DNA from: Prevotellaceae bacterium
Lineage (GTDB): Bacteria > Bacteroidota > Bacteroidia > Bacteroidales > UBA932
Length of the DNA: 6,741 nucleotides
Direction of reading: 5' to 3'
Assembly: GCA_031288855.1 (NCBI GenBank)
Contig: JAITQQ010000159.1
Coordinates: forward strand, 1 to 6,741
Under the pieces are notes generated by a model. That model had not been told where the DNA came from. It did not search any database and was given only the letters and a program-made list of their open reading frames with translations. The position numbers and the translations under genes were made by a program. Of this stretch, positions 1 through 2,644 are shown one piece after another. Numbering within the stretch: the stretch's first letter is position 1; every line of letters begins with the position of its first letter.

Positions 1-603
1 TTGAAGCGTGTGGTTTATCTCGCCCAAATGTTGATGCGTAAATGCCTTATAAATGGAAATATTTGACGCGCGGTAACTGAAATGCGATGTTTCGGCGAGC
101 TGTTTTCCCGCGCCGGTGGCGCCGGTGAGCGCGTGAATATAAATATCATCAGCCATCCATTTGTGAGCGGCCAGCGGCGCCAAGGCCAAAATAATGGCCG
201 TAGCGAAACAGCCGGGATTTGCCACGTAAGCGGCCGCCGCAATGTCATTCCTGAACAATTCGGAAACGCCATACACAAAATGTTTGTCTCCAAACTTATT
301 TTCTACCCGGAAATCATTCCCAAGGTCGATCACTTTACAGTGTGCGGGTATTTTATGCGTGGTCAAAAACTCCCGCGACAAGCCGTGTCCAAGGCACAGG
401 AACAACACATCGGGCTCGCCCAACGTGTCGGTAAAATGCAAATCGCAGTCGCCGTACAAATCTTTGTGCACCGACGACACCGCCTGTCCATTGAGGCTGC
501 TCGTCAGCAACGCGGTAATCGTTACGTGGGGATGGTTCAACAATATTCTGATCAACTCCCCGCCGGTATAGCCGGTAGCGCCGGCAATAGCTACTTTAAT
601 CAT
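1..603 (-). CDS. argC: N-acetyl-gamma-glutamyl-phosphate reductase, N-terminal part (gene runs off the left edge)
   Basis: Reduces N-acyl-gamma-glutamyl phosphate to the semialdehyde with NADPH, the third step of arginine biosynthesis, in the cytoplasm. The first 201 residues are present, of a family length usually around 310-350; no stop codon lies inside the window, so the C-terminal substrate-binding part is missing here by truncation of the window, not by mutation. The start ATG at 601-603 opens MIKVAIAGATGYTGGEL, a Rossmann dinucleotide-binding loop (residues about 3-17). The active-site cysteine is Cys132 in NPGCFAT (129-135). The segment LTGATGAGK (159-167) and the later HFSYRASNIS / KAFTHQHLGEI (174-195) also match ArgC. 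It overlaps the argG stop by 8 bases (ATGATTAA), so translation is probably coupled. In related genomes the next gene is usually argD, which cannot be checked here. In Bacteroidota the acyl group may be succinyl rather than acetyl. Confidence 0.96.
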   Translation of the reverse strand, partial: MIKVAIAGATGYTGGELIRILLNHPHVTITALLTSSLNGQAVSSVHKDLYGDCDLHFTDTLGEPDVLFLCLGHGLSREFLTTHKIPAHCKVIDLGNDFRVENKFGDKHFVYGVSELFRNDIAAAAYVANPGCFATAIILALAPLAAHKWMADDIYIHALTGATGAGKQLAETSHFSYRASNISIYKAFTHQHLGEINHTLQ

Positions 604-1783
604 TTTCGTGTACGGCATAATAAATCTTTAACGGATTAGACAGCACTTTGGAAAAGCCCACCACATCGGCGCCGGTAAACGAAGTGTTGATTTCGCCATA
701 TTGCCCGAACTTCGCATTCATCAAATCGTAGGGCGACGAACAGCCCAACACCGCAAAATGGTAAGGCCGCAACTCCACCGTCACCACGCCGCACACCGCC
801 TTTTGCGTGTCGGACAAAAACGTTTCGATATTCCGGGCCAACGGATCGAGATATTGCGCCTCATGCATGAGTTGCCCATACCAGCCTGCCAACTGTTCTT
901 TCCAGTACAACTGCCCTTTGGTGAGCGTGTGCTTTTCGAGCAAATGATGGCTTTTAATAATAATCATCGGCGCAGCCGCCTCAAACGCCACCCGGCCTTT
1001 TATGCCGATGATGGTATCGCCCACGTGCGTGTCGCGCCCCACGGCAAATTTCGAAGCCAACGCATGCAGCTTGCGGATAAGCGCCACCGGCTTCAACGGC
1101 TCGCCGTTCAAAGCCGTTGGCTCACCCTGATGAAATGTAATAGTGATTTTTTCGGGCGCTGTTTTTTCAAGTTGCGACGGATAAGCCTCATTGGGCAAAT
1201 ACGTGTCGGACTTCAAAGTTTCCACACCGCCAATGCTCGTACCCCACAGGCCTTGGTTAATCGAATATTTTGCTTTTTCCCACGAAAGGTTATATCCGTT
1301 CTTGGCCAAGTAGGTAATCTCTTCCTCGCGCGACAAAGCCAATTCCCTGATCGGGGCAATTACCTTTATGCCGGGCGCCATCACTTCAAACACCAAATCA
1401 AAGCGCACTTGGTCGTTTCCCGCACCGGTGCTGCCATGCGCCACATACGCAGCCTGCAACTTTTGTGCATGTTTCAACACCGCCAACGCCTGAAAAACCC
1501 GCTCCGAACTTACCGACAACGGATACGTGGCATTTTTTAAAATATTCCCGAAAATTAAATATTTAATCCCCTTGTTGTAATATTCCTCTTCCACATTAAT
1601 AGCGGTATGCGTAGCCGCCCCAAGCGCAAGCGCACGTTCTTCTATTTTACGCTCTTCTTCTTTTGAAAAACCACCGGTATTCACCAAGGCGGTATGCACT
1701 TCCAAACCTTTCTCATTTTTCAGGTAAGGTACGCAAAACGAGGTATCCAACCCACCGCTAAAAGCCAACACAACTTTTTCCAT
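596..1783 (-). CDS. argG: Argininosuccinate synthase
   Basis: Condenses citrulline and aspartate with ATP to give argininosuccinate, the penultimate step of arginine synthesis; cytoplasmic and normally a tetramer. The protein has 395 residues, full length for the family (about 400). The ATP PP-loop is AFSGGLDTS at residues 7-15. HGSTGAGNDQVRFD (116-129) is the conserved nucleotide/citrulline-binding segment, and SINQGLWG (174-181) and the stretch GDTIIGIKGRVAFEAAAP (255-272) are further family signatures. It lies 47 bases downstream of the GNAT gene on the same strand, with only AT-rich sequence between, and its stop overlaps the argC start. All three genes therefore look like one transcript. 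There is no Shine-Dalgarno sequence before the ATG, which is normal for this phylum. Nothing in the sequence suggests loss of activity. Confidence 0.98.
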   Translation of the reverse strand: MEKVVLAFSGGLDTSFCVPYLKNEKGLEVHTALVNTGGFSKEEERKIEERALALGAATHTAINVEEEYYNKGIKYLIFGNILKNATYPLSVSSERVFQALAVLKHAQKLQAAYVAHGSTGAGNDQVRFDLVFEVMAPGIKVIAPIRELALSREEEITYLAKNGYNLSWEKAKYSINQGLWGTSIGGVETLKSDTYLPNEAYPSQLEKTAPEKITITFHQGEPTALNGEPLKPVALIRKLHALASKFAVGRDTHVGDTIIGIKGRVAFEAAAPMIIIKSHHLLEKHTLTKGQLYWKEQLAGWYGQLMHEAQYLDPLARNIETFLSDTQKAVCGVVTVELRPYHFAVLGCSSPYDLMNAKFGQYGEINTSFTGADVVGFSKVLSNPLKIYYAVHEND

Positions 1784-1830: not shown

Positions 1831-2481
1831 TTAAAGTAACGTTCTGAAAAGTGCACGAAACGCGAATACCGGCGCGGCCGCCAATGTTTTTACCGGCGTT
1901 GTAATAAAAGAAGTCAACGCCGGCGTTGCCGATTTTACCGGCTTCGGCTTGTATTCCGGATCGTACAAGAGTGCCGTACACAAGCACATTTTCCGGTCGT
2001 TGCGTTCGAGAATATCGTAATTTTTGCACCCTTTACAGCCGTCCCAAAACTCCTTGTCGTCGGTTAATTCGACAAACGGTACCGGCCGGAATCCCAATTC
2101 GTAATTAATTTTCATCACCGCGGGGCCGGTAGTAATGCTGAAAATTTTAGCTTTCGGGTAACATTTTCGCGACAAAGCGAATATTTCCCGTTTGATTTTT
2201 CTCGCCAGCCCGCTGTGCCGGTAAGCATGCGCCACGATAAGCCCGGAGTTGGCCACAAATTGTTTATGGCTCCATGTTTCGATATACGAAAAGCCTATGA
2301 TTTCATCATTTTCTATCGCCACTACGGCTTTCCCTTCAATCATTTTTTGGGCAATGTATTCAGCTGTACGGTTGGCAATGCCTGTTCCCCTTTCCTGTGC
2401 GGAAATATAAACCAACTCACAGATTTTTTCCGCATATTTCACATGGCTACAATTTGCCTGACAGATGGTAATATTACTCAT
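1831..2481 (-). CDS. GNAT-family N-acyltransferase of the arg operon; candidate N-acetyl/N-succinylglutamate synthase
   Basis: The 216-residue protein is a GCN5-related acyltransferase. The acyl-CoA pyrophosphate loop is visible as YRHSGLA (87-93, the R-x-x-G-x-A form), preceded by the central strands KAVVAIENDEIIGFSYIETW (51-70) and FVANSGLIVAH (75-85), and followed by KINYELGF (124-131). A conserved-looking block WDGCKGCKNYDIL...CLC (146-168) holds four cysteines (149, 152, 166, 168) spaced like a metal site. The last 45 or so residues are Pro/Ala/Thr-rich and look like a loose tail. It is the first full gene after the arginine leader ORF and precedes argG-argC, an order I recall from other Bacteroidota. 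From this context I infer that it acylates glutamate in the first step of the pathway, in place of classical ArgA or ArgJ. The family is certain; the substrate is inferred. The start is fixed by an in-frame TAG just upstream of the ATG. Confidence 0.85.
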   Translation of the reverse strand: MSNITICQANCSHVKYAEKICELVYISAQERGTGIANRTAEYIAQKMIEGKAVVAIENDEIIGFSYIETWSHKQFVANSGLIVAHAYRHSGLARKIKREIFALSRKCYPKAKIFSITTGPAVMKINYELGFRPVPFVELTDDKEFWDGCKGCKNYDILERNDRKMCLCTALLYDPEYKPKPVKSATPALTSFITTPVKTLAAAPVFAFRALFRTLL

Positions 2482-2534
2482 CTAAGCAATAAAATTTAAA
2501 GATTAAAAAATACAAATGGATTCTTGAACAAAGG

Positions 2535-2542
2535 CCTCCTTA
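2535..2542 (-). promoter_or_regulatory. Perfect Shine-Dalgarno-like sequence TAAGGAGG at the leader stop
   Basis: TAAGGAGG is fully complementary to the 16S rRNA anti-Shine-Dalgarno core, and its TAA is the stop codon of the leader ORF. It is too far (about 53 bases) from the GNAT ATG to serve it directly. The nearest possible start is a TTG three bases downstream (2529-2531), which opens only an 11-codon ORF. None of the other genes in the window has an SD, so this one may have a regulatory use such as holding a terminating ribosome, or may be chance. Confidence 0.45.
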
Positions 2543-2605
2543 GGCACATCTTCGGACGTGCCGTCTCCGTTGGTTTAAATCAATAGTATAGCCTTTTTCG
2601 TTCAT
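2540..2605 (-). CDS. Arginine-rich leader peptide (putative attenuator peptide), 21 residues
   Basis: This small ORF reads ATG to TAA in the leader of the arginine operon. The peptide begins MNEKGYTIDL and then carries QRRRHVRR (12-19): five arginines in seven residues, encoded CGG AGA CGG CAC GTC CGA AGA, then Cys-Ala-stop. This is the design of amino-acid operon leader peptides such as those of the his and trp operons: a short ORF loaded with codons for the end product, in front of the biosynthetic genes. The ATG lies 9 bases after the -7 box, so the mRNA would have only about 5 bases before it. The A-rich start context suits initiation in this phylum. The last arginine codons lie within the hairpin at 2543-2562. 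The peptide probably has no function after synthesis; stalling on its codons would be the signal. Expression is not proven. Confidence 0.75.
   Translation of the reverse strand: MNEKGYTIDLNQRRRHVRRCA
2543..2562 (-). promoter_or_regulatory. RNA hairpin within the leader ORF
   Basis: On the minus-strand RNA, GGCACGUC pairs with GAUGUGCC around a CGAA loop, giving eight continuous pairs including one G-U. On the plus strand the same G-U position would be an A-C mismatch, so the stem is fully formed only in the arg transcript. It covers codons 15-21 of the leader ORF, including Arg18 and Arg19, and ends one base before the stop codon. A ribosome paused on Arg13-15 would therefore interfere with its 5' arm. 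The alternative GACG-GCA-CGUC stem (2555-2565) shares that arm and excludes this hairpin. Confidence 0.65.
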
Positions 2606-2614
2606 AATTCGGCG

Positions 2615-2644
2615 CAAAGGTAATTATTTTTTTAATATTACAAA
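2615..2644 (-). promoter_or_regulatory. Promoter of the arg operon (Bacteroidota type)
   Basis: Reading the minus strand, TTTG (2641-2644) is the -33 box and TACCTTTG (2615-2622) matches the -7 consensus TAnnTTTG, with an 18-base spacer, close to the usual 19 or so. Transcription should start near 2610, just before the leader ORF. This is the best-formed promoter in the window and lies within the purQ promoter region on the other strand. Confidence 0.75.

Follow-up and report, generated by a model that had tools for sequence, protein, structure and literature searches.

Does a short, arginine-rich open reading frame (ORF) in front of an arginine operon serve a Prevotellaceae bacterium as an arginine sensor? 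The stretch of DNA analysed here (the window, 6,741 nucleotides) carries on its minus strand a promoter, a 21-codon ORF with five Arg codons among seven and then the genes for an acyltransferase, ArgG and ArgC. A reading made from the sequence alone (hereafter the sequence-only reading) had described this order, and each part of it was found again. Like the leader of an attenuator, the ORF is short and lies between promoter and operon on the same strand. The trpL, hisL and pheL leaders of enterobacteria are amino-acid leader-peptide attenuators, and the locus shares with them a short ORF behind a promoter, codons for the operon's own amino acid, a hairpin at or after the ORF and a biosynthetic operon downstream. 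It differs from them in the amino acid, here arginine, in a start codon that probably lies almost at the RNA 5' end, in having no canonical terminator in the window, in a C-CGA sequence that is nearly fixed in Bacteroidales and in a place that is held by argR in other Bacteroidales.

From the comparison of related loci we consider it likely that the leader ORF is the sensor of a ribosome-mediated arginine attenuator which reads charged tRNA-Arg. Bacteria with such a leader probably sense arginine by the speed of the ribosome on the Arg-rich stretch; we infer that the ribosome stalls there and that the RNA of the window converts the stall into expression. Leader-peptide attenuation is old, and arginine-sensing leader ORFs are published for other genes (speF, rbf). 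A search for a leader of an arginine biosynthesis operon found none in the open-access literature, which, as the search covered open-access papers only, is weak evidence of novelty.

Leader ORF, promoter and operon in the window

The features of the window are collected in Table 1. We named the promoter by what we take to be the Bacteroidota promoter consensus. Its TTTG element and its -7 box are 18 nt apart, and the start codon of the leader follows 9 nt behind the -7 box. The distance is short elsewhere too, 7-9 nt in 96 of 114 distinct leaders from related loci (about ten of the 114, e.g. L038, L092 and L128, look spurious), which would put the RNA 5' end only a few nucleotides from the start codon; the window mRNA is thus probably almost leaderless. 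To our knowledge, Bacteroidota are largely devoid of Shine-Dalgarno sequences. The absence of Shine-Dalgarno sequences and the TAnnTTTG -7 box both appear in PMC9723704 (papers are cited throughout by PMC number and from excerpts of their text). Starts this near to the 5' end would make the leaders a good system for the study of translation-transcription coupling in Bacteroidota.

Table 1. Features of the leader region and the operon in the window
Feature	Position	Strand	Basis and remarks
Leader ORF, MNEKGYTIDLNQRRRHVRRCA	2540..2605	minus	21 codons + TAA; predicted
-7 box TACCTTTG (TAnnTTTG)	2615..2622	minus	sequence
TTTG, -33-like element of the leader promoter	2641..2644	minus	sequence
Arg codons 13-15 (CGG AGA CGG)	2561..2569	minus	sequence
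Arg codons 18-19 (CGA AGA)	2549..2554	minus	sequence
Hairpin P2, GGCACGUC-CGAA-GAUGUGCC	2543..2562	minus	codons 15-21, Arg-containing ORF end; predicted
Helix P1, 5' arm	2591..2604	minus	leader codons 1-5; predicted
Helix P1, 3' arm	2525..2535	minus	nt 5-15 after the leader stop codon; predicted
U6 tract between leader and GNAT gene	2505..2510	minus	14 nt after P1; not a canonical terminator
Hairpin holding the GNAT start codon	2454..2489	minus	predicted
GNAT acyltransferase	1831..2481	minus	Pfam GNAT; probably the N-acyl(succinyl)glutamate synthase that starts arginine synthesis
argG, argininosuccinate synthase	596..1783	minus	TIGR00032 above cut-off
Putative argC, N-acyl-gamma-glutamyl-phosphate reductase	1..618, cut by window end	minus	semialdehyde dehydrogenase domains

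Codons 13-19 of the leader read CGG AGA CGG CAC GTC CGA AGA (R R R H V R R). The two closest relatives of the window keep the leader, as MNKKGYTIDLNQRRRHVRECA-stop in L171 and MNEKGYIIDLNQRRRHVRGCA-stop in L172. What is kept in the relatives is the CGA of codon 18 after GTC; codon 19 encodes E in L171 and G in L172. No tRNA remnant was found by ARAGORN, and Rfam covariance models of known leaders and riboswitches gave no match in the window or in 18 relatives. A search of viral contigs found no relative.

The leader is separated by 58 nt from the GNAT gene; the divergent neighbour of leader and operon is purQ. Genetic data place BT3761 in arginine synthesis, probably as N-succinylglutamate synthase (PMC7311316), and the GNAT protein of the window is likely its ortholog, orthology being assumed. 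The gene cut by the window end is presumably argC, judging from its domains and its place in the operon.

Leaders in related loci and the place of argR

Taken singly, the Arg content of the window leader is modestly unusual, improbable but not striking (binomial score 2.6 as -log10 p, 5% background). By itself this score would leave room for a chance ORF in front of an operon that is controlled otherwise. We analysed 230 loci, namely the window, 80 loci from a GNAT profile search (the best 80 of at least 580) and 149 loci, a few of which repeat loci of the 80-locus set. The latter are the best matches from the orders of G002 (Bacteroidales), G025 (Aestuariivivens, presumably Flavobacteriales) and G022 (Microscillaceae, presumably Cytophagales) and from the families of G011 (Fermentimonas) and G001 (Prevotellaceae). 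A leader was defined as an ORF of 7-45 codons no more than 450 nt upstream of the GNAT gene, its ATG following 4-13 nt after a TAnnTTTG box. Before any Arg requirement this rule was satisfied in 130 of the 230 loci, and in 103 of the 230, many of them close kin and hence not independent trials, the ORF had at least two Arg in its last eight residues. In 20 rounds of dinucleotide shuffling the mean was 0.5 such leaders and the maximum 2. The rest of the same loci (1.73 Mb, both strands) yielded 60 background ORFs by the same rule. After identical peptides were collapsed, 92 of 117 leaders kept the Arg feature, vs 3 of 57 background ORFs. An operon with an accidental ORF at its head is accordingly a most improbable reading, against which stand both the count over the shuffles and, as a negative control, a lineage of argR-type loci at shuffle level (below).

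The ends of the leaders are enriched in one residue above all. Arg makes up 30% of the last eight residues in leaders vs 4% in background ORFs of the same loci, Val 11% vs 3.5% and Lys 1.2% vs 8.8%; since Lys is depleted, the signal is arginine and not positive charge. As in an attenuator, codons of the operon's own amino acid are enriched and conserved in relatives. The sequence-only reading had staked its proposal on an Arg-rich ORF at this place in close relatives, and the ORF is present in these as well as in several Bacteroidota orders. In several orders of the phylum, the comparison shows a predicted promoter, a near start codon and a short Arg-ended ORF before the arginine operon. Cultured relatives with a leader include Pseudozobellia thermophila and Algibacter onchidii (L063, L078).

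Distribution across orders was assessed by another rule (at least three Arg in the last eight residues, any promoter, 350 nt). Among loci of Flavobacteriales type, 14 of 36 had Arg-rich ends vs 0.6 in shuffles; L074 and L111 represent one locus, and L128, L137 and L138 seem doubtful. The count was 10 of 30 for Cytophagales-type loci (shuffles 0.33) and 59 of 135 for other Bacteroidales-type loci (shuffles 4.1). The argR-type Bacteroidales (L085-L110) had Arg-rich ends in 2 of 26 loci vs 2.3 in shuffles, thus no excess. That arginine operons are normally controlled by ArgR, as the sequence-only reading stated, agrees with this set, in which argR lies directly before the GNAT gene.

ArgR was searched with PF02863 in a set of 28 genomes (2 positive) and in one of 80 genomes (28 positive), G001 being in both. 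Judged by coordinates, 20 of the 28 positives have their ArgR match immediately before the GNAT gene. Combined over 107 loci, the 73 leader genomes searched have ArgR adjacent in none, elsewhere in 8 and not found in 65; among the 34 other genomes it is adjacent in 20, elsewhere in 2 and not found in 12, and five of these 34 (L156, L179, L115, L074, L078) carry leaders missed by the strict rule. Many genomes are drafts, so absence of argR is soft evidence. The ORFs of the window include no argR, and the nearest relatives G371, G387, G377 and G001, all drafts, gave no match.

Leader and adjacent argR exclude each other with a Fisher p of 6e-13, a value which overstates the exclusion because the split corresponds to one change in the tree. 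In this GNAT protein tree (FastTree, 108 rows, 100 with either state) a single change separates leader and argR states, when L156, L179, L115, L074, L078 and L112 are relabelled as leader by hand and the 8 rows with neither state are left out; with all three labels there are 9 changes. The exchange may therefore have happened once, long ago; that argR was replaced repeatedly and independently was rejected, as the tree needs the single change only. By position, the putative leader takes in its lineages the place that argR has in other Bacteroidales. Ribosome stalling would then be one regulatory logic at a site where relatives use another, a repressor, and Bacteroidota without a nearby argR would have a concrete arginine-sensing device.

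Some loci deviate from the common plan. Tandem leaders seem to be present in the flavobacterial loci L074 (= L111), L075, L078, L114 and L115, where the GNAT gene is preceded at 213-227 nt by a 21-23 codon ORF ending in several Arg, and an R-R-P-stop motif occurs elsewhere in the same 450 nt; L074, L078 and L115 have a second short ORF nearer the gene. In L132, L135, L136, L139 and L140, from genomes of about 0.6 Mb, the match to GNAT is part of a frame of 594-620 amino acids with ArgG directly after it, an arrangement that resembles a fusion of GNAT with ArgG; the search upstream of these five gave no Arg-ended ORF. The GNAT matches of L092 and L107 contain in-frame stop codons.

Codons, reading frame and peptide

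The 114 distinct leaders contain TCCGA 97 times, and 96 of these lie in the frame NTC|CGA, at leader lengths of 11 to 31 codons (one Cytophagales-type case of 42 codons is doubtful). Of the 386 Arg codons in leaders 49.5% are CGA; in long ORFs from these loci the share is 10.6% (7431 Arg codons). The base before a leader CGA is C in 110 of 124 cases, the window (2552-2555) included, while 30% of codons in long ORFs are NNC; in Val-CGA pairs, Val is GTC in 85 of 87. The preference belongs to Bacteroidales; Flavobacteriales-type loci use mainly CGC and CGT, and Cytophagales-type leaders have mixed Arg codons with many AGG. The C before CGA matches no structure or decoding rule known to us.

Selection on the peptide as a whole was tried as proof of translation and set aside, the ratio pN/pS being 0.80 in frame vs 0.88 and 0.86 in the shifted frames (252 non-independent pairs). 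As this signal is weak, frame and Arg identity were used instead as the sign of translation. Comparison of the predicted leaders indicates that frame and arginine are conserved, the remaining peptide little. The sequence-only reading had expected a conserved Arg-rich ORF with changing codons, an expectation borne out between orders (CGA, CGC/CGT, or mixed with AGG) but scarcely within Bacteroidales, with their almost invariant C-CGA and the pN/pS just stated. By eye, many Bacteroidales leaders, variable otherwise, show near codons 5-8 one of the residues H, N, Y or Q with I or T behind it, often as CATAT.

An RNA element of the riboswitch kind, untranslated and holding UCCGA by its structure, with the ORF as a by-product, would account for C-CGA being nearly invariant at synonymous sites within Bacteroidales and for the weak pN/pS, and helix P1 is supported in the window's clade. 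We regard such an element as very unlikely, since it leaves unexplained that TCCGA keeps the frame despite the differing leader lengths and that other orders keep Arg with different codons; P1, moreover, shows no native-pairing effect in 95 other leaders (p 0.24), and the Rfam search was empty for the window and 18 relatives. An assay with a bacterial his leader found CGA to be a slow, de-attenuating codon; any Arg codon except AGG, when paired with CGA, gave the highest de-attenuation (PMC4046918). Slow reading would fit the choice of CGA for stalling, and the nearly fixed C-CGA would be a natural experiment on the codons that make a ribosome wait.

The position of the arginines admits a further reading, nascent-peptide arrest, for which SpeFL and the fungal arginine attenuator peptide are examples. 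A V/I-R-R end near the stop codon would bind free arginine or ornithine in the ribosome and stall it when these are abundant, so that excess represses. The distance from the last Arg to the stop is 1-3 codons in 104 of the 114 distinct leaders, and the residue preceding Arg is hydrophobic, mostly V. Of the 36 Flavobacteriales-type loci, 9 contain an R-R-P-stop motif. A lone Arg codon, as in MKKSGIIFVRL-stop (L025), is all that five convincing leaders have, which would be odd for a counter of starvation. The core HIRRT of Salmonella ORF34 (PMC6386406) can also be set beside the HVRR of the window clade. Yet the non-Arg residues and the spacing from the start vary widely, as do number and position of Arg, and the synonymous choice of GTC and CGA is conserved though sensing by the peptide does not require it. 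Leaders of 11 residues are also short for an arrest peptide. On balance it seems unlikely that the leader end, with V/I-R-R beside the stop and C-CGA as its context, senses free arginine or ornithine as a nascent chain; if it did, a minimal peptide, down to 11 residues and one Arg, would replace ArgR in a large part of the phylum. We retain the sensor of charged tRNA-Arg as the preferred reading.

The fungal arginine attenuator peptide is eukaryotic and translational and arrests at high arginine, by which it differs from the leader described here; what the two share is a short ORF before an arginine gene, by which arginine is reported. In bacteria, the orf34 leader of Salmonella speF (DUF2618) has consecutive Arg codons, and its translation rate reports arginine (PMC6386406). 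It is likewise an Arg-codon leader ORF, and its core HIRR resembles HVRR here. As far as the excerpts describe it, orf34 differs in its target, ornithine decarboxylase, in its sensing Arg codons, 12-13 of 34 and not by the stop, and in the part of Rho and RNase G in the output. With its 21 residues and its arginine operon, the window leader does not belong to DUF2618/ORF34, and the HVRR similarity was noted by eye. The rbfL leader of Staphylococcus aureus has rare Arg codons at its end (MVLKYRKR), where pausing senses arginine limitation (PMC13009471). Short length, terminal Arg codons and arginine sensing are common to both; limitation there represses a biofilm regulator (rbf) by covering the ribosome-binding site, which is of opposite sign and non-biosynthetic. 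Within the phylum, attenuation by leader peptides before amino-acid operons was proposed for Flavobacterium psychrophilum from transcript maps (PMC9723704), the same type of mechanism, in which arginine is not named as a case in the excerpts. Candidate leader ORFs have also been mentioned for Bacteroides thetaiotaomicron (PMC7366714).

RNA folds and the output step

In the proposed attenuator, a ribosome short of charged tRNA-Arg would halt on the Arg codons of the leader, CGA being slow, and would block a hairpin at or behind the leader stop codon, and the operon would be expressed. With ample arginine the ribosome would finish and depart, the hairpin would form and expression would fall. In the window and its nearest kin, P2 inside the ORF end and P1 would take the place of a terminator; candidate outputs in the window are termination, RNA decay and translation of GNAT.

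Folds around and downstream of the leader stop codon are stronger than those of shuffled sequences (mean z -1.68, n 108; 37 of 108 at -2 or below). They are strongest in the Fermentimonas family (z -2.37, n 30), where the folds that were printed place a hairpin within a few nucleotides of the stop codon in quite different sequences. In the window clade (14 loci) the fold is weak (z -0.71), and for the whole leader region of the window z is only -1.19. Pairing of the last leader codons with downstream sequence is 0.424 vs 0.369 in shuffles, 61 of 108 leaders exceeding their own shuffles; it lies below the shuffles in the Fermentimonas family (0.279 vs 0.339) and in the window clade (0.341 vs 0.378).

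A hairpin of -12 kcal/mol or lower with a T-rich run was found in 24 of 109 leaders vs 4 of 109 shuffled ones (one shuffle each), an excess that is smaller in independent terms because a single clade of near-identical sequences supplies 15 of the 24. The terminator hairpin of L006, L010 and L058 starts at the stop codon of the leader, and its 5' arm would be hidden by a ribosome that waits on the final Arg codons; read in this way, the three would represent the simplest attenuator, with a textbook terminator. The window has no terminator-like site, and its U6 tract is not a canonical terminator.

In the 14 loci of the window clade, native pairing of P1 is stronger than pairing between arms swapped among loci (-10.9 vs -8.1 kcal/mol, permutation p 0.0003). 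A single RNA architecture across clades was rejected, as native pairing of P1 was found in the window's clade only. In fold models of the window, P1 outlasts a ribosome stalled at the Arg codons; only one at the stop codon abolishes it. For a switch between alternative helices, P1 is supported and P2 predicted, and the ribosome-masking model shows no clear switch.

The start codon of the GNAT gene is predicted to be paired more than control starts: the pairing value is 0.70 over 114 leader loci, whose kinship makes them non-independent, and reaches 0.475 for 254 control gene starts and 0.50 for shuffles. When 31 nt were masked as a stalled ribosome in fold models of seven loci including the window, the start codon was not freed. 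A translational switch through this hairpin was rejected, since the hairpin stays closed in the models. The sensor of the window is well supported; its output step, given the masking models and a window without a terminator, is not. In L172 a paired G-C is changed to A-U in the coding part of the GNAT-start hairpin (by eye).

Another hairpin of 27 nt, GCAATTGACAATCNNGGTTTGTCTTGC, lies upstream of GNAT and is almost unchanged in a Cryptobacteroides-like clade (L030, L031, L036, L041, L045, L046, L025 and others). L037, L043 and L049 have no Arg leader, and the hairpin there directly follows the promoter. With two mismatches allowed, it was found in 4 of 59 genomes of one family, once in each; by coordinates its place in G036, G369 and G372 is shortly before the GNAT match, and the fourth genome, G017, is that of L030.
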